The notes below the pieces were generated by a model. That model searched no databases, was not told where the DNA came from, and saw nothing but the letters and a program-made list of their open reading frames with translations. 52,427 nt of DNA from Methanoculleus sp. MH98A (GTDB taxonomy: Archaea > Halobacteriota > Methanomicrobia > Methanomicrobiales > Methanoculleaceae): assembly GCF_000691865.1 (NCBI RefSeq), contig NZ_JMIO01000021.1, positions 1 through 52,427 on the forward strand, in the 5' to 3' direction. The stretch's first letter is position 1. Every line of letters starts with the position of its first letter. Shown here piece after piece: positions 17,827 to 24,635 of this stretch. The translations under genes were made by a program, and so were the position numbers.

Positions 17827-18006
17827 TCAGAGCCCGAGCCGTGCGAGAGGGGAGGCGAAGACGGAAAACCTGCTCTTCTCGGCAAGGCAGACCGGGCAGC
17901 GCCAGTCTTCGGGGAGGCCTTCAAACGCGGTTCCCGCCGGGGCGTCCTGATCGCCGGCCTTTTCGTCGTAGATATGCCCGCATATCGAGCAGCGGTAGGT
18001 CTTCAT
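17827..18006 (-). CDS. Rubredoxin
   Basis: About 59 residues. The two iron-binding pairs are C-S-I-C-G-H-I-Y-D and C-P-V-C-L-A-E-K, with the conserved aromatic and acidic linker (E-G-L-P-E-D-W-R). The single Fe(Cys)4 centre carries one electron; in methanogens rubredoxins serve oxygen and superoxide reduction. The tail (R-F-S-V-F-A-S-P-L-A-R-L-G-L) is longer than in minimal rubredoxins. ATG 18006 starts right at the fold. It is divergent from the UbiA gene at 18089. Confidence 0.93.
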   Translation of the reverse strand: MKTYRCSICGHIYDEKAGDQDAPAGTAFEGLPEDWRCPVCLAEKSRFSVFASPLARLGL

Positions 18007-18088
18007 GATCGTGGAATGCACCGGCTGCAGACTTAACCCTGCTGCAACATTTTTTGAGCGCTGGCGTAGAACCCATGATCCTGCCATC

Positions 18089-19030
18089 ATGAGAGAGACC
18101 CTCGCGGCGCTCGCCGACCTGACCCGGGCTCATTTCTTCTTCGTCTGGCCCCTGCTCTTCTGCTCGGGGCTGGCGCTCGCGTTCGCCAACTACGGCGGGT
18201 TCTCGTGGGAACTCGTCGGCCGGGCAGCGCTGATCGGCCTCCTCGGGTTCGAAGCCGGGCTCGTCCTGAACGATTACGTCGACCGGGAGTACGACAGGAG
18301 GGACGTCAACGGTTCGCTCACTCGCTACTGGCGGCCGTTCGGCGAGCGACCGATACCGGCGGGAAAACTCTCCCCCCGGGCGGCCAACGCCCTCTTCCTC
18401 CTCCTCGCCGGCCTCGCGGCCGCCCTCGCCGCGACCCTCCCCGCTCCCCACAACCTCTACGTCCTCGGGATCATGGGCTACTCGTACCTGGCCGAGTACT
18501 TCTACCAGGCCAAGAAGCGGGATCAGAAGATCCCCATCGCCCAGATCGTCGGGCGGACGGATTTCGCCCTCTTCCCCGTCGCCGGCTACCTGGTGTACGG
18601 GAATCCGGACACGACCGCTCTCCTCTTCTTCCTCTTCTTCTACCCCTGGACGCTCGCGCACCTCGGGGCAAACGACATCGCCGATATCGAAAACGACCGC
18701 GCCCGGGGGATGGCGACGATCCCGAGTCTGACCTTCGGTCTGACCGGGTCGGCTCCGGAGGACCCGACTCCGGTTCTCTACGGCATGAGAAGTGCAGGCG
18801 CCTGGGTTCTCGGCTTCTCGGCCATTCACGCGGGTATGGCGCTCGTCTTCGGCCTCGCGCTCGGGCCGATCGCCATTGCCGGGTTCGCGATGGGGCTCAT
18901 CCTCCTCGGGGCCGCAAACTACCTCATCCTCAGTGGGAAGAGCGCGGACGCGGCGATGCGGGCGCTCCCGCTCATGCACGCATCGCTGCTCGTTTATGCC
19001 GCGGCGATCATCGCGGGTGCCCTCCTCTAG
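18089..19030 (+). CDS. UbiA family prenyltransferase (second)
   Basis: About 313 residues, eight or nine membrane helices. The first Asp motif is N-D-Y-V-D-R-E-Y-D near residue 62 and the second D-I-A-D-I-E-N-D-R-A-R-G near residue 198. It is only distantly like the UbiA protein at 10436-11359 and carries an extra T-R-Y-W-R-P-F-G-E-R-P-I-P-A-G after the first motif, a pattern seen in archaeal UbiA proteins of unassigned acceptor. The start was placed at ATG 18089, which begins a normal N-terminus; the frame open from 18005 overlaps rubredoxin. No Shine-Dalgarno is visible, so the transcript may be leaderless. Confidence 0.83.
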   Translation: MRETLAALADLTRAHFFFVWPLLFCSGLALAFANYGGFSWELVGRAALIGLLGFEAGLVLNDYVDREYDRRDVNGSLTRYWRPFGERPIPAGKLSPRAANALFLLLAGLAAALAATLPAPHNLYVLGIMGYSYLAEYFYQAKKRDQKIPIAQIVGRTDFALFPVAGYLVYGNPDTTALLFFLFFYPWTLAHLGANDIADIENDRARGMATIPSLTFGLTGSAPEDPTPVLYGMRSAGAWVLGFSAIHAGMALVFGLALGPIAIAGFAMGLILLGAANYLILSGKSADAAMRALPLMHASLLVYAAAIIAGALL

Positions 19031-19137: not shown

Positions 19138-19502
19138 CTACGCCACGATGAACGCCCCGTGCATCGCGGGGTGGACGTCGCACCGGAAGAAGTAGTTTCC
19201 CGGGGTCTCGGGCGCCGTGAAGGTGTAAGTGGTCCGAACCGGGCCCGTGACAATCTCGCCGACAAAGATCGCTTCAGCCGCGGAAGAATCCGTGTAGACC
19301 GCGACGTTGTGCGGAACCCCGTCATCCCGGTTGTCGAACTCGATCGTCACCTCCGCGCCTGCAGGGACCGTTATTATCTCCGTGCTGAAGCCGAAGTTCT
19401 CGGCCGCGATTGCGACGGTCACCCTCGCGACGGCGCGGGCCGCTTCCGGGGTCACGCCAGCACCCCCGCGACGGGTGCCGTGCCTGTGGTTGTTCGTGCC
19501 AT
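19138..19502 (-). pseudogene. Single-domain cupredoxin, probable frameshift near its 5' end
   Basis: The cupredoxin fold is complete in the frame 19138-19455: I-T-V-P-A-G-A-E-V-T-I-E-F-D-N, P-H-N-V-A-V-Y and F-F-R-C-D-V-H-P-A-M-H-G, giving the type-1 copper ligands His, Cys, His and Met. A strong Shine-Dalgarno (GGAGGGGG) precedes ATG 19502, but that frame stops after 16 codons; one added G (CTG-GGC) joins it to the cupredoxin. The GTG at 19455 is an alternative start and would give an unbroken 105-residue protein. Either way there is no obvious signal peptide, unlike the paralogous domain in the next gene. It probably carries electrons or binds copper. Confidence 0.7.
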
Positions 19503-19593
19503 GAGTCCCCCTCCAGGAGACCGGGAGGCATAAAGGTTGTCCCGGCCGGCGCCAGAGCGATCTCCCGGTGCACTCTAAAAAGGGAGGGGGCCT

Positions 19594-21645
19594 CTACTCA
19601 ACAACGAACTCCCCGTCCATCGAGGGGTGGACGTCGCACCGGAAGTAATAGGTTCCGGGCTCCTCCGGCGCCGTGAAGGTGTAAGTCACCTGGTCCGGGC
19701 CGTCGATGATCTCGCCGACGAAGATTGCATCGGCCGCGGAAGAATCGGTGTAGAACGCGACGTTGTGCGGGATACCCGTATCCTGGTTATCGAAGACCAT
19801 CGTCACGTTCGCTCCCGCCGGGACGGTGATGGTGGACGTGTTGAAGGCAAGGGCTTCGGCAGCAACCCCCACGGTAACGTTCCCGGCCGCGGCCGGCGTA
19901 GCGTTTCCAGTCGGGGTTGCGGTCACGTTCGTGGTCACGGCAGGTGTCGTGGTCACGTTCGCAGTCGGAACCGCCGTAACGTTTTCAGTCGGCGTTACGG
20001 TCACATTCCCGGTCGCGGTCGGGGTTGTGGTCACACCCGCACCCGGAACCACCGTCACGTTTGCTGTCGGAGTCGGCGTCTCCGTCACGTTCGCCGGGAC
20101 GATCTTCCAGACCGTCCCGGTCGCGTTGGCGGCATCCGGGCCCGCGTCTTCGGACGTGAGCGCGTAGAGTTCCGACTCTCCACCCTCACCGAACCCCAGG
20201 AGGTAGGCGTCCAGGGTTCCCGCGGGCGTCCCGGTCACGTTGAGCCTCTGCAGGCTCCACATCGCAACGTCTTCGGGCGTGAGGTTCTCTGCAGAGTCCG
20301 GGAAGGCCGTTGCGTTCCACTCCGCCGGGGGCGTCGCGACGAGCAGGGTGGCGTTCGCGACGTCGAAGCCGGTGCTCCAGTAGCCGAAGACGTAGCGTCC
20401 CGCAAGGTCCGGGAGCGCCGTCCCGTTGTAGACCCGGCCACCGACGAAGACAACACCCAGGTCATGGCCGCCCTCGATGACGGGGCCGATCAGGGGTTCG
20501 CCGGAGGAGCCGTTTGCCGGGCAGGTCGCCGGGGGTGTTTCGGGGTTCTCCGGATCGAAGCAGAGGGTTCCCTCCCGGAGGCGCCACCCGTAGTTGCCGC
20601 CGTTCACCACAAGCGAGACTTCCTCAAAGAGGTTCTGGCCGGCATCCGCCACAAAGAGGTTGCCTTCGGCGTCGAACGTGATGTACGCCGGGTTCCGGAG
20701 ACCGTAGGCGTAGATCTCGGGCGGGATGCTTTCGTTCGCGACGAACGGGTTGTCCGCCGGGATCCCGTAGAGCGATCCCGCCGCCGTCGTCCAGGTGGCG
20801 TTCTCCGGCGGCTCCGTCACGTTCTCCGCGGTGACGTTGTCCACGTCGATCCGGAGCACGCTGCCGTAGATGTTTGTCAGATCCTGGGCGTTCCCGATCT
20901 CCGGGGTGTGGCCGGTACCGTTGTCGTTCGCCGCGCCGCCGTCCCCGAGCGGCACGTAGAGGTAGCCGTCACGGGGACCAAACGCGATGCTCCCGCCGTT
21001 GTGGTTGGACTGCGGCTTGTCGATCTCGATCAGGATCTCCTCGGAGGTCGTGTTGACCCGGTCGGGGTTCGTGGGGTCGACCTCGAACGCGGAGAGGCGG
21101 TTCGTGCTGTCCCAGTCATCAGGCGCCTCCTCGCGGAGGGGCGCGGTGTAGAACGCAAAGACCCGCCCGTTCTCCCCAAACTCGGGGTGGAAGGCAATCG
21201 AAAGGAGCCCGCGCTCGTCGTAGGACGGGGTGAGGTTGACCATGCGGTCGCGGACGTCCAGGAACGGCTCCTCAACGAGGGTGCCGTTTGCATCGATGAT
21301 CGAGACCGTGCCGACCTGGTCGACGACAAAGAGCCTGCCCGTGCCGTCGCCGGCGTCCGTCAGCATCAGCGGCGCGACGAAACCTTCGGCCACGGGCTCG
21401 AGACTCACGTTAACCGTCTCGTTCTCCCCGGCAAGCCGGGTGATCGAGGTGTTGTTCAGGTACCCCGCCGCGTAGGGCGACCCGGCGTTCGTCAGGTTCC
21501 CGGCGGTGGCCGTTACATTCCCCGCTTCTGGAGCGGGAGTCTGCGTGAGATCGGTTCCGCCGTTCGGGTACACCGCAGCCCCGGCAACGCCTGCCAGGGC
21601 GAGGACCACGAGGACGGATATCATGACTACGGCTGCTCGTGTCAT
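19594..21645 (-). CDS. Exported PQQ-type sugar dehydrogenase-like protein fused to a cupredoxin
   Basis: 683 residues. Signal peptide about 1-23; glucose/sorbosone dehydrogenase-type beta-propeller about 80-510 (G-R-L-F-V-V-D-Q-V-G, Y-D-E-R-G-L-L-S-I-A-F-H-P, N-H-N-G-G-S-I-A-F-G, A-Y-G-L-R-N-P); a Thr/Pro/Val linker about 525-600 built of repeated N-V-T-x-T-P-T units with dense N-glycosylation sequons; and a C-terminal cupredoxin (P-H-N-V-A-F-Y, F-R-C-D-V-H-P-S-M). The propeller family oxidises sugars with PQQ and Ca2+, and the cupredoxin would accept the electrons. A methanogen is not expected to make PQQ, so the propeller may bind sugar without oxidising it. The upstream lone cupredoxin shares most of the domain sequence, so they arose by duplication. 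Confidence 0.85.
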   Translation of the reverse strand: MTRAAVVMISVLVVLALAGVAGAAVYPNGGTDLTQTPAPEAGNVTATAGNLTNAGSPYAAGYLNNTSITRLAGENETVNVSLEPVAEGFVAPLMLTDAGDGTGRLFVVDQVGTVSIIDANGTLVEEPFLDVRDRMVNLTPSYDERGLLSIAFHPEFGENGRVFAFYTAPLREEAPDDWDSTNRLSAFEVDPTNPDRVNTTSEEILIEIDKPQSNHNGGSIAFGPRDGYLYVPLGDGGAANDNGTGHTPEIGNAQDLTNIYGSVLRIDVDNVTAENVTEPPENATWTTAAGSLYGIPADNPFVANESIPPEIYAYGLRNPAYITFDAEGNLFVADAGQNLFEEVSLVVNGGNYGWRLREGTLCFDPENPETPPATCPANGSSGEPLIGPVIEGGHDLGVVFVGGRVYNGTALPDLAGRYVFGYWSTGFDVANATLLVATPPAEWNATAFPDSAENLTPEDVAMWSLQRLNVTGTPAGTLDAYLLGFGEGGESELYALTSEDAGPDAANATGTVWKIVPANVTETPTPTANVTVVPGAGVTTTPTATGNVTVTPTENVTAVPTANVTTTPAVTTNVTATPTGNATPAAAGNVTVGVAAEALAFNTSTITVPAGANVTMVFDNQDTGIPHNVAFYTDSSAADAIFVGEIIDGPDQVTYTFTAPEEPGTYYFRCDVHPSMDGEFVVE

Positions 21646-21678: not shown

Positions 21679-23691
21679 TTACCCTGCCCGTTCGTAGATC
21701 CTGACACCCCCCTCGTCGTAGATGAGGCGGAGCCCCCGGTCCGGCAGCCGGACGTCGTAACGCTCGTGCTCGGGCTCGCCGACGTAGAGGAGGGTCGCGT
21801 TGTACTTCTCCATGAGCGCAAGAGTCCGTTCGGGATCCTCGTAGATCGCCCGGATCTCCGCCGGGCGCTCCGTGTACCAGGGACCGTTTCCCCGCCATGT
21901 CAGTTCATGCCCGATCTGCCCGAGGATCGTCGGGATACCGGAAAACGACGAGACCCTCGAGTAGTAGCCGTAATCTCCGTTTTCCGCCTCGACGATCCGG
22001 TGATCGCCGTCGAGCGTCCGGAGGAAGTCGATCGCCGCGGCCTCCCCCGGCCGCGTGGCTTCGAGGTAGGCGAGCCCGTCCAGGGTGTGGTAGCCCGCCG
22101 GAGGATAGTCGATCCCGAGGAGTCCCCGGCCGATATCGACGTCGAGGGCGACCGGGGCGGCGACGAGAGCGATGGCTGCGGCGACGGCAGCGCCCTTCCG
22201 TGCCGCCGCCGGGACCGGCCGCCGGCCTGCAAGCCACTTTCCGGCGAGGAGGAGGGAGCCTGTCCCGAGCAGGATCCAGGCGTCGAAGTAGAACTTGAAG
22301 ATGGTGTTGAACCGGCTGTAGTCGCCCCCGAGCATCTCCTGGAAATAAAAGATCTCGCAGAAGGCGAGGACCGCAAGCCCAGCAATGCAGAGGAGGGACG
22401 GGAACGAGCGCTCCCGGCGGAGAAGGAGGTAGGCGAGCGGGACCAGGAGGATGGCGAGTACGGCGTAGCCGGCGGCAAGTGCCGGGACGGCGACGGCGAG
22501 CGCCACCGGGACCCGCCGGATATCGGGGGCGACGGCGGCATAGATGATCGCGAGGAAAAAACCCCAGATCGCGAGGAAGGCAAGCGGGTCGGTGGGAGGG
22601 AGACCCCATCCGATCCCGCCGATACCCGCGGGCTCGAGGTCGAGGTAGTAGGGGAGGTAGACGAGAAAGGCGACCGCGGGGACCGCAACGGCGGCGGCGA
22701 GGGTGGAGCGGTCACGCTCGCGGGCCAGGACGGCGAGGAGGAAGGCGGCAACGGCGGGAGCGTAGACGAGAGCGTCCCAGGAGCAGAGGAGCGGCATCGA
22801 GCCGACGGAGAGGCCGAGAAGGAGGATGAGGCTCCAGCGGCCCCGGATGCCGAGCCCGCCCCACCGGCACCACATGAACCCGAGGAGGAAGATGAGGAAG
22901 ACCTGGTTGAACACGGCCATCTCGAAGGCGTGGACGTTCCCGAGGAAGAGAGAGAAGACCGGAAACTCGACCCGGCCGCCGGGGATGATCCAGTTGGTAT
23001 CCTGGAAGGCGTAATAGAGATCGCTCCCTCTGGCGACGAACCAGACGACCGACGGCGGGACGAGGAGGAGGACCGCGAGGGGAAGCCACCGCCAGCGTCC
23101 GGTGATGAGGTGCCCGAGAGCGTAGAGCGCGACAAATGCCGTCCCATAGACCGTCCCCGGAATCAGGTTGAAGGCCACCTCCGACGGTGTGCCGGTGACG
23201 ATGGCGATGGAGCCCATCAGCCAGTGGCCGAGGTAGTAGTAGACGGTGAGGTGGCCGCCCGCAAACCAGGGGTCGAGCGGGGGCACGACGGGCTCACGGA
23301 TGACGCTCGCGAGGAAGGCGTGGTTCATGTACTGCTCGCTGAAGTAGCCGACGGGCGGGTTTACGAACCGGACGGAAAGGGCGAAGAGGAACCCGACGGC
23401 AAAGACCGCGTCCCAGAAGAGGAAACTCCGGATCTCACCTGACCGGTAATCGCCCCGCCGGATGCCGTATACGGCGAGACCGACGAAGAGGAAGAGGGCA
23501 AGAGCGACCGGGACGCGGAGGAGGCCGCAGTACCAGGTCGCGAGGGCGAAAAGGAGGAGGGAGGCAGGGTAGGCCGCCGGGTAGGCAAAGTCCCCGAGTG
23601 CCGGGCGGAGCCGGGGCCAGAGGGCCATCTGCAGCCCTTTGAGGAGCCCCACCCAGAGGAGCACGTCCCACGCCTGGAGGAGGAGGTTCAC
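21679..23691 (-). CDS. DUF2298 multi-spanning membrane protein
   Basis: About 670 residues with around 14-16 hydrophobic helices. The DUF2298 marks are visible: P-P-L-D-P-W-F-A-G-G-H-L-T-V-Y-Y-Y-L-G-H near residue 140 and F-Y-F-Q-E-M-L-G-G-D-Y-S-R-F-N-T-I-F-K-F near residue 455. The soluble C-terminal part has G-D-Y-G-Y-Y-S-R-V-S-S-F-S-G and W-R-G-N-G-P-W. The family is glycosyltransferase-like (a GT-C type layout) and of unknown substrate; involvement in surface glycan assembly is a reasonable inference given the glycosylated neighbour. It ends 33 bases before the sugar dehydrogenase-like gene and may be cotranscribed with it. Confidence 0.85.
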   Translation of the reverse strand: MNLLLQAWDVLLWVGLLKGLQMALWPRLRPALGDFAYPAAYPASLLLFALATWYCGLLRVPVALALFLFVGLAVYGIRRGDYRSGEIRSFLFWDAVFAVGFLFALSVRFVNPPVGYFSEQYMNHAFLASVIREPVVPPLDPWFAGGHLTVYYYLGHWLMGSIAIVTGTPSEVAFNLIPGTVYGTAFVALYALGHLITGRWRWLPLAVLLLVPPSVVWFVARGSDLYYAFQDTNWIIPGGRVEFPVFSLFLGNVHAFEMAVFNQVFLIFLLGFMWCRWGGLGIRGRWSLILLLGLSVGSMPLLCSWDALVYAPAVAAFLLAVLARERDRSTLAAAVAVPAVAFLVYLPYYLDLEPAGIGGIGWGLPPTDPLAFLAIWGFFLAIIYAAVAPDIRRVPVALAVAVPALAAGYAVLAILLVPLAYLLLRRERSFPSLLCIAGLAVLAFCEIFYFQEMLGGDYSRFNTIFKFYFDAWILLGTGSLLLAGKWLAGRRPVPAAARKGAAVAAAIALVAAPVALDVDIGRGLLGIDYPPAGYHTLDGLAYLEATRPGEAAAIDFLRTLDGDHRIVEAENGDYGYYSRVSSFSGIPTILGQIGHELTWRGNGPWYTERPAEIRAIYEDPERTLALMEKYNATLLYVGEPEHERYDVRLPDRGLRLIYDEGGVRIYERAG

Positions 23692-23786: not shown

Positions 23787-24635
23787 ATGGCCGACGCAAA
23801 GAAGAACAATCCGGGGGTCATCCGCCTCCGGGAGAAAGGAAAGGTCGCCGTCCGGGGAAAGATCCTCGCCGGCGTGATGACCGCGCCGCAGATGGCGGCG
23901 GTATCCCGGATCGCAGAGGAGTTCGGGGACGGTACGGTCGGGCTGACGGCCCGGCTCAACGTGGAACTCCCCGGCATCGACCGGCGGGATACAGGAGAGG
24001 TTGCAGAACGGCTTCGGGAGGCAGGGATAGAGCCCGGGAGTACCGGAGCCACTCTGCGGTCGGTCGTCGCCTGCAAGGGTACGATCTGCAGGCATGGGTG
24101 CTGCGACACCCAGGGGCTCGCCCGGGCGATCGAGGAGCGGTACGGGGGGTGCGATCTCCCCCGGAAACTGAAGATCTCGATCGCGGGGTGCCCGAACAAC
24201 TGCGCAAAGGTCCAGCTCAACGATATCGGGATCATGGGGGGGCGGTTTCCCCTGTTTGCCGACGAATGCGAAGGGTGCGGGGCGTGCGAGAAGGTCTGCC
24301 GGGAAGGAGCCGTCCTGGTCGCCGACGGCGGGGCCCTCTTCTCAGAGGAGGACTGCATCGGGTGCGGCGACTGCATATCCGTCTGTCCCACAGGGGCGAT
24401 CGGCGTCGCTTCGGAGGGACTGCGCTTCTTCCTCGGCGGAAAGTCGGGCAGGGTGCTCCGGGTCGGCACCGGGGCCGACGGACTGGTCGCCGAAGAAGAG
24501 GCGGTCGCGATCGTCGGACGGCTGATTGACTGGTTCCGGGAGAACGCACTGCCGGGCGAGCGGTTCGGGGAGATGATGATGCGCGTGGGGAGAGAGACCG
24601 TCTTTGCAGCCGCCGGGATGAGGCCGCAGGAATGA
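23787..24635 (+). CDS. Small sulfite/nitrite reductase-like protein with two [4Fe-4S] ferredoxin motifs
   Basis: About 282 residues. The N-terminal ferredoxin-like half domain (about 15-85) leads to a siroheme-[4Fe-4S] region: C-K-G-T-I-C-R-H-G-C near residue 93 and C-P-N-N-C near residue 136. This is followed by a two-cluster ferredoxin (C-E-G-C-G-A-C-E-K-V-C and C-I-G-C-G-D-C-I-S-V-C-P). It belongs to the short Dsr-like proteins common in methanogens, including the sulfite-reductase half of Fsr. The first siroheme Cys pair has spacing C-x4-C rather than the classic C-x5-C. Substrate (sulfite, nitrite or another) is unproven. The gene stands alone. Confidence 0.85.
   Translation: MADAKKNNPGVIRLREKGKVAVRGKILAGVMTAPQMAAVSRIAEEFGDGTVGLTARLNVELPGIDRRDTGEVAERLREAGIEPGSTGATLRSVVACKGTICRHGCCDTQGLARAIEERYGGCDLPRKLKISIAGCPNNCAKVQLNDIGIMGGRFPLFADECEGCGACEKVCREGAVLVADGGALFSEEDCIGCGDCISVCPTGAIGVASEGLRFFLGGKSGRVLRVGTGADGLVAEEEAVAIVGRLIDWFRENALPGERFGEMMMRVGRETVFAAAGMRPQE

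Follow-up and report, generated by a model that had tools for sequence, protein, structure and literature searches.

The window, a 52,427-nucleotide stretch of the genome of Methanoculleus sp. MH98A, carries a gene that joins a quinoprotein-family propeller to a type-1 cupredoxin, with a free cupredoxin gene beside it. Our preferred reading, which is tentative (probability about 0.4), is that the fused protein serves, without canonical PQQ, as a surface ligand-binding or redox head joined to a one-electron copper module, and that the free cupredoxin is a separate protein. Surface electron or copper exchange of hydrogenotrophic methanogens is barely known. Here, one polypeptide unites a quinoprotein-family head and a copper domain. 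For Methanothrix, these two kinds of surface protein have each been put forward as agents of electron uptake, and within the order their combination is found repeatedly. Their small size allows the proteins to be produced and assayed, so the question is testable.

Both open reading frames were found on the minus strand (Table 1). Pfam assigned residues 94-357 of the fused protein to GSDH (PF07995, E 8.8e-31; 107.8 bits vs a curated cut-off of 25) and residues 582-682 to Cupredoxin_1 (PF13473, E 1.2e-9) and Copper-bind (PF00127, E 4.5e-9). The adjacent protein consists of a cupredoxin alone (PF13473, E 1.7e-11; PF00127, E 4.5e-7). The 69-aa linker contains 24 Thr, 12 Val, 11 Ala, 9 Pro and 6 Asn; with six N-x-S/T sequons in the linker and 31 across the entire fused protein, the tether is probably glycosylated. 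The signal peptide was judged by hydropathy and the structure model rather than by a dedicated predictor. In these respects the first-pass annotation was borne out: the propeller-linker-cupredoxin architecture, the adjacent single-domain protein, and the predicted secretion and probable glycosylation of the fused protein all stand. So does the methanogenic nature of the host, whose genome has two McrA copies (E about 2.5e-67). The structure model of the fused protein had a pLDDT of 59.6 with a shallower alignment and 79 with a deeper one, and the latter model was used for Foldseek. The same gene arrangement was present in G007/L086, a genome closed as a single contig, and in the isolates L006 and L016, which indicates that it is not an assembly artefact. 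The closest loci belong to Methanoculleus species, including M. sediminis S3Fa and strain FWC-SCC3.

Table 1. Features of the two cupredoxin genes and their neighbours in the window
Feature	Position	Strand	Remarks
Fusion protein, 683 aa: signal peptide, GSDH (HHIP-type) propeller, Thr/Pro/Asn linker, cupredoxin	19594..21645	-	
Signal peptide, residues 1-23 (MTRAAVVMISVLVVLALAGVAGA)	21577..21645	-	modelled helix 2-20; hydropathy 3.4
Propeller, residues 78-519	20089..21414	-	His215, Asp235, Arg317, Asn318 kept; C-terminal R-x-R and Lys PQQ anchors probably lost
Flexible linker, residues 520-588, Thr/Val/Ala/Pro/Asn-rich, 6 sequons	19882..20088	-	disordered in model
Cupredoxin domain, residues 589-683	19597..19881	-	ligands His627, Cys670, His673, Met676; C-x2-H-x2-M loop
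Upstream neighbour: DUF2298 / Chlor_Arch_YYY membrane protein	21679..23691	-	synteny conserved
Downstream neighbour: UbiA-type prenyltransferase (PRK12871)	18005..19030	+	synteny conserved
Free cupredoxin, 105 aa, GTG start, ligands His49, Cys92, His95, Met98	19138..19455	-	without signal peptide, without sequon
16-codon leader ORF MARTTTGTAPVAGVLA*, apparent GSDH-type signal-peptide start remnant	19452..19502	-	GTGA overlap with cupredoxin start
Conserved TATA-like box AACCTTTATG	19529..19538	-	~30 nt upstream of leader ATG, as before the fusion gene; putative promoter element
GGGGGTG, Shine-Dalgarno-like, precedes GTG start	19461..19467	-	

In the sequence search, the best solved relative of the propeller was human HHIP (E 7e-35), and the PQQ sugar dehydrogenases ranked behind it (1e-12 to 1e-6). 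Foldseek also placed HHIP first (3.4e-30, about 26% identity), ahead of Acinetobacter sGDH (3.2e-18) and the Asd 3a9g (4e-18). The motif DERGLL is common to the propeller and HHIP, and the fused protein scored 67 with NCBIfam TIGR03606, for which the cut-off is 435. Judged by sequence and modelled fold, the propeller is HHIP-like and not an ordinary PQQ sugar dehydrogenase. HHIP, which is not a PQQ enzyme, differs from the protein described here in being an animal protein with EGF repeats and a Hedgehog-binding loop, and in having lost the Arg-Asn pair.

The catalytic His-Asp and Arg-Asn of the propeller were aligned to E. coli YliI, and His215, Asp235, Arg317 and Asn318 were invariant in 40/40 aligned family propellers. 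We take them to correspond to His144, Asp163 and Arg228-Asn229 of sGDH, with the Asp163 equivalence and the numbering assumed. The propeller shares these residues, the fold, the Pfam family and the GGNYGW motif with PQQ Asds and sGDH (YliI 2g8s, 3a9g and Acinetobacter 1cru), whose solved structures have no cupredoxin domain. In sGDH, the PQQ carboxylates are held by Lys377 and C-terminal arginines (PMC6881789), and the positions tested for were Lys377 and Arg406/Arg408. Unlike these enzymes, the propeller has AYLLGF where the alignments of four solved Asds read R-[IL]-R-[DE]-V, and GYWST in place of the Lys loop; the Lys and Arg anchors were missing across 40 relatives. Within residues 362-513, just one column (417) was at least 80% basic among the 40 aligned propellers, so there is no obvious replacement for the anchors. 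The Ca2+ loop EQGP/EHGP reads DAGQ, and the ligands there are main-chain carbonyls, which are not readable from sequence. The profile alignment ends at GGNYGW, which calls for caution on blades 5-6, where the match to known enzymes is poor. The alignment and the absence of conserved basic residues suggest that the PQQ anchors have probably been lost. With the anchors lost and the catalytic core kept, automatically assigned names such as "PQQ-dependent sugar dehydrogenase" are probably misleading for these archaea. The original description as a PQQ-type propeller agrees with the GSDH family membership; its fallback, a PQQ-less propeller acting as a binding scaffold, has gained ground from the loss of the anchors, the HHIP match and the CBM6 domain on relatives.

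The supply of PQQ was assessed by a profile search for PqqC, as the earlier annotation had suggested. No match was found in 35 genomes of the genus or in any of 231 genomes of the order. Sinorhizobium pSymB, added as a positive control since the initial control genomes gave no match, was detected with an E of 5e-129. PqqE profile matches adjoin the fusion in several relatives. We rejected these radical SAM genes as PQQ maturases, since NCBIfam ranks them as AhbC/AhbD/NirJ haem enzymes. An AhbA decarboxylase neighbours them in relatives, and none exceeded the PqqE cut-off. Being haem-type and below the cut-off, they do not support PQQ synthesis; uptake of PQQ from outside is possible.

Both window cupredoxins retain the full His, Cys, His, Met type-1 set. 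Across related loci, the ligands were kept in 73/76 cupredoxin domains; in L118, L120 and L121, where two cupredoxins stand in tandem, the first one accounts for the three exceptions. In these proteins (L118:4681-6975, L120:1712-3898, L121:3370-5556), a GSDH carries a first cupredoxin that has lost the Cys-His-Met part of the copper site and a second one that has kept it. The first-pass annotation had looked to relatives for loss of the cofactor residues together with loss of the copper ligands. Only half of this was seen: the cofactor anchors are lost, but the copper ligands are not. The search for copper transport genes that it had called for returned two CopA-type copper-ATPase matches above the cut-off in the window genome, which also encodes a third cupredoxin carrying a lipobox (L114 3445-4047). 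The C-x2-H-x2-M loop of both window proteins resembles that of amicyanin, which is the acceptor of a quinoprotein in bacteria. However, the two window cupredoxins scored 24.5 and 32.2 bits with the NCBIfam amicyanin model TIGR02657, below its cut-off of 110.2. NosZ likewise has a propeller followed by a cupredoxin on one chain and gave a weak whole-length Foldseek match (E 5e-8), but the TM-score was 0.28 and the domain here has one Cys with type-1 ligands, not the two Cys of CuA.

The combination of propeller and copper domain was found in several arrangements. In locus A, the window type, the order is DUF2298, GSDH(-cupredoxin), an optional second GSDH, free cupredoxin and UbiA. Among 15 Methanoculleus genomes with this locus, the GSDH was fused in eight, a free cupredoxin was present in 13, and two had no cupredoxin. 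L006 and L014 carry a fused GSDH, an unfused GSDH and a free cupredoxin consecutively, which suggests that the window probably lost the middle gene. Locus B contains CO dehydrogenase, a DUF4399-cupredoxin and lipobox cupredoxins together with GSDH-cupredoxin, GSDH-fasciclin or a methanol/ethanol-dehydrogenase-like propeller-cupredoxin, and Big_2 surface proteins adjoin it. Other families of the order have a GSDH with two cupredoxins, CBM6-GSDH-cupredoxin (L116/L117), N-terminal cupredoxin-GSDH with PGF-CTERM (the N-terminal fusion was seen in L128), or a lipobox GSDH adjoining a lipobox cupredoxin; in L122 and L126, GSDH and cupredoxin are adjacent separate genes. Some Methanoculleus loci have a fasciclin domain as the C-terminal module, or no such module, and an adhesion or display role fits this equally well. 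The related loci share ancestry, and these counts are not independent events. No cupredoxin was found near the intracellular-type (signal-less) GSDH paralogues in 10 loci with flanks of about 5.8 kb, one side being cut in one of them. The paralogue of this type in the window genome (L001:644-1878, G000 contig 25) is split over two overlapping frames, through either a genuine frameshift or an assembly error, and is intact in relatives. Two other window genes deserve mention. The 282-aa ORF at 23787-24635, which adjoins the DUF2298 gene and is conserved in locus A, reads by eye as sulfite/nitrite reductase half-like with two ferredoxin-type Cys clusters. The 480-aa ORF at 14361-15803 matches Gate and FeoB_C but no GTPase domain and looks like an unusual fragment of a FeoB-like transporter.

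Cupredoxins of the clade that is fused to GSDH also occur fused to a methanol-dehydrogenase-like propeller (TIGR03075, E 1.4e-53). Compared with 1kv9, this propeller is missing the vicinal Cys pair and the Ca2+-ligand Glu and has kept the Asn and Asp, with these residue identities in 1kv9 assumed. Such proteins at L018:26-2371, L019:3567-5969 and L020:6397-8703 have the same linker type and the same cupredoxin, and further propeller-linker-cupredoxin fusions of this kind lie at L072:2450, L080:11124, L082:6351 and L084:7432. The propeller of the L018-type fusions also matches the NCBIfam "empty quinoprotein" family below the cut-off. The window genome had no PF01011 match, and this propeller is missing from it. 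At least five switches between the fused and the unfused form are needed to explain the GSDH tree. In the cupredoxin tree, which has few columns and many weak forks, the GSDH-fused and methanol-dehydrogenase-like-fused domains interleave, suggesting that the copper module moved between the two propeller types. A wider reading, which we regard as improbable, is that Methanomicrobiales possess a redox system at the cell surface built on two unrelated PQQ-type propellers, each with an incomplete PQQ site, which would employ a non-PQQ cofactor or a bound substrate at the retained catalytic half-site and deliver or withdraw electrons by way of one exchangeable type-1 copper module.

The free cupredoxin has amicyanin as its best PDB match (9e-6) and is 68% identical to the fused window domain over 91-97 aa. 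In the cupredoxin tree, it clusters with other free cupredoxins (SH-aLRT 98), and the fused domain clusters with domains fused to other heads (SH-aLRT 98). We therefore rejected a recent origin of the free protein by copying of the fused domain; of the "close copy" described earlier, the kinship holds, but the fused domain is nearer to the cupredoxins of other heads. Neither a signal peptide nor a lipobox was found on the free cupredoxin in 11 related loci. Sequons occurred in 0/11 free domains vs 31/52 other domains (Fisher P 3.5e-4, relatedness ignored). The dN/dS of the free and fused cupredoxins was 0.10-0.39 in the six closest loci, which, together with the intact ligands, rules out a dying pseudogene. 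The joint extracellular relay of the two proteins, as first suggested, is unsupported: the free cupredoxin has neither signal peptide nor sequons, falls in another clade and is under purifying selection. From its sequence, the free cupredoxin is probably cytoplasmic and functional, and it would be unusual if it is indeed a copper protein of the cytoplasm.

The leader ORF comprises 16-17 codons (MARITVVMASVAGVRA and variants), resembles a GSDH signal-peptide start, and at its end overlaps the cupredoxin start as GTGA/ATGA in ten related loci. Given this remnant and the overlap, the free cupredoxin gene appears to derive from a GSDH-cupredoxin copy that was rearranged, with truncation of its signal peptide. 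The overlap may permit translational coupling. In L014, the leader is fused in frame to the cupredoxin, still without a signal peptide. Substitutions in the leader numbered 6, 9 and 5 by codon position, with no third-position excess, and we dropped protein-level selection on the leader. For the free cupredoxin, we also considered that the leader is joined by -1 slippage at the G5 run to yield a secreted product. GGGGG is present in 9/10 leaders found, and joining in L012 gives a product with a segment that is mildly hydrophobic, but the run equally suits a Shine-Dalgarno site and is absent in L088, and the hydropathy of the joined products (about 1.9-2.1 over 10 residues) compares poorly with the 3.3-3.6 of real signal peptides here. 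Together with the substitution pattern and the L014 fusion, these points make slippage highly improbable.

In the mechanism that we propose, the fused protein would be exported by its signal peptide and shown on the cell exterior. The HHIP-type propeller would act as the head that binds a ligand or substrate, its canonical PQQ anchoring lost and its His-Asp-Arg-Asn core kept; the bound ligand, perhaps a glycan, would sit at the pocket with the retained core. The amicyanin-like type-1 site, presumably copper-loaded, would be carried on a flexible and probably glycosylated tether. The copper domain would most likely pass single electrons between the head or its ligand and other surface cupredoxins, of which the lipobox cupredoxin elsewhere in the window genome is an example. 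The free cupredoxin would be a separate, probably intracellular offshoot of a rearranged GSDH-cupredoxin gene, kept by selection for a copper or redox job.

Several alternatives were weighed against this mechanism. The fused protein may be a non-redox scaffold whose HHIP-like propeller binds glycans of the surface or protein partners and whose cupredoxin buffers or captures copper or is simply a structural display domain. HHIP, the top match by sequence and fold, binds heparin/glycosaminoglycans and the Hedgehog protein (PMC8660895), and the CBM6 and fasciclin domains on relatives, the lost PQQ anchors and the Big_2 neighbours of locus B are all in keeping with such a role. We nevertheless find it somewhat unlikely: all 40 propellers keep the His-Asp-Arg-Asn core, though HHIP lost the Arg-Asn pair; the full type-1 ligand set is typical of electron transfer; and this cupredoxin also occurs joined to another propeller of quinoprotein type.

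A PQQ-dependent sugar dehydrogenase that scavenges PQQ from neighbours and passes electrons to its own cupredoxin would account for the family membership, the catalytic residues and the CBM6 on relatives, and E. coli depends on external PQQ (PMC6881789). The altered R-[IL]-R-[DE]-V and Lys-loop sequences, the single basic column, the low TIGR03606 score and the lack of PqqC matches in the order make it improbable. The fungal AA12 enzyme CcPDH (PMC6881789) is comparable in that a sugar-dehydrogenase propeller is fused to an electron-transfer domain, and carbohydrate-binding modules occur on relatives of both proteins; unlike in the protein here, its electron-transfer domain is a cytochrome b, and its PQQ ligands, Arg621 among them, have been identified. 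More improbable still is an electron-uptake chain from other cells or minerals. A precedent is offered by Methanothrix, in which a PQQ-type protein and several copper-domain proteins are expressed at the surface and have been proposed, speculatively, to serve electron uptake (PMC10470525). SqpA and the copper-domain proteins of Methanothrix are encoded by separate genes, whereas both modules are on one chain here, and the likeness is drawn at the level of description. Haem-synthesis enzymes and cytochrome bd subunit I-like proteins in an island of some relatives would also suit electron uptake. However, over about 5 months Methanoculleus marisnigri neither paired with Geobacter metallireducens nor took up electrons from it (PMC6962339), and a haem or membrane redox partner is absent beside the window locus.

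A literature search with limited subscription coverage returned no paper on a GSDH-cupredoxin fusion or a Methanoculleus cupredoxin. On the sequence comparison, the domain architecture is new, all its parts belong to known families, and its function is predicted. Two further loci extend the range of neighbours and architectures. The island at L054:3667-16912 holds AhbA/AhbC/AhbD-like haem synthesis genes, two cytochrome bd subunit I-like proteins, a cupredoxin, a GSDH-fasciclin protein, a universal-stress-like protein and an ABC transporter. At L115:6546-10001, a surface protein of more than 1150 aa contains a methanol-dehydrogenase-like propeller, a fasciclin domain, a DUF4399-like stretch, another fasciclin domain and a cupredoxin.
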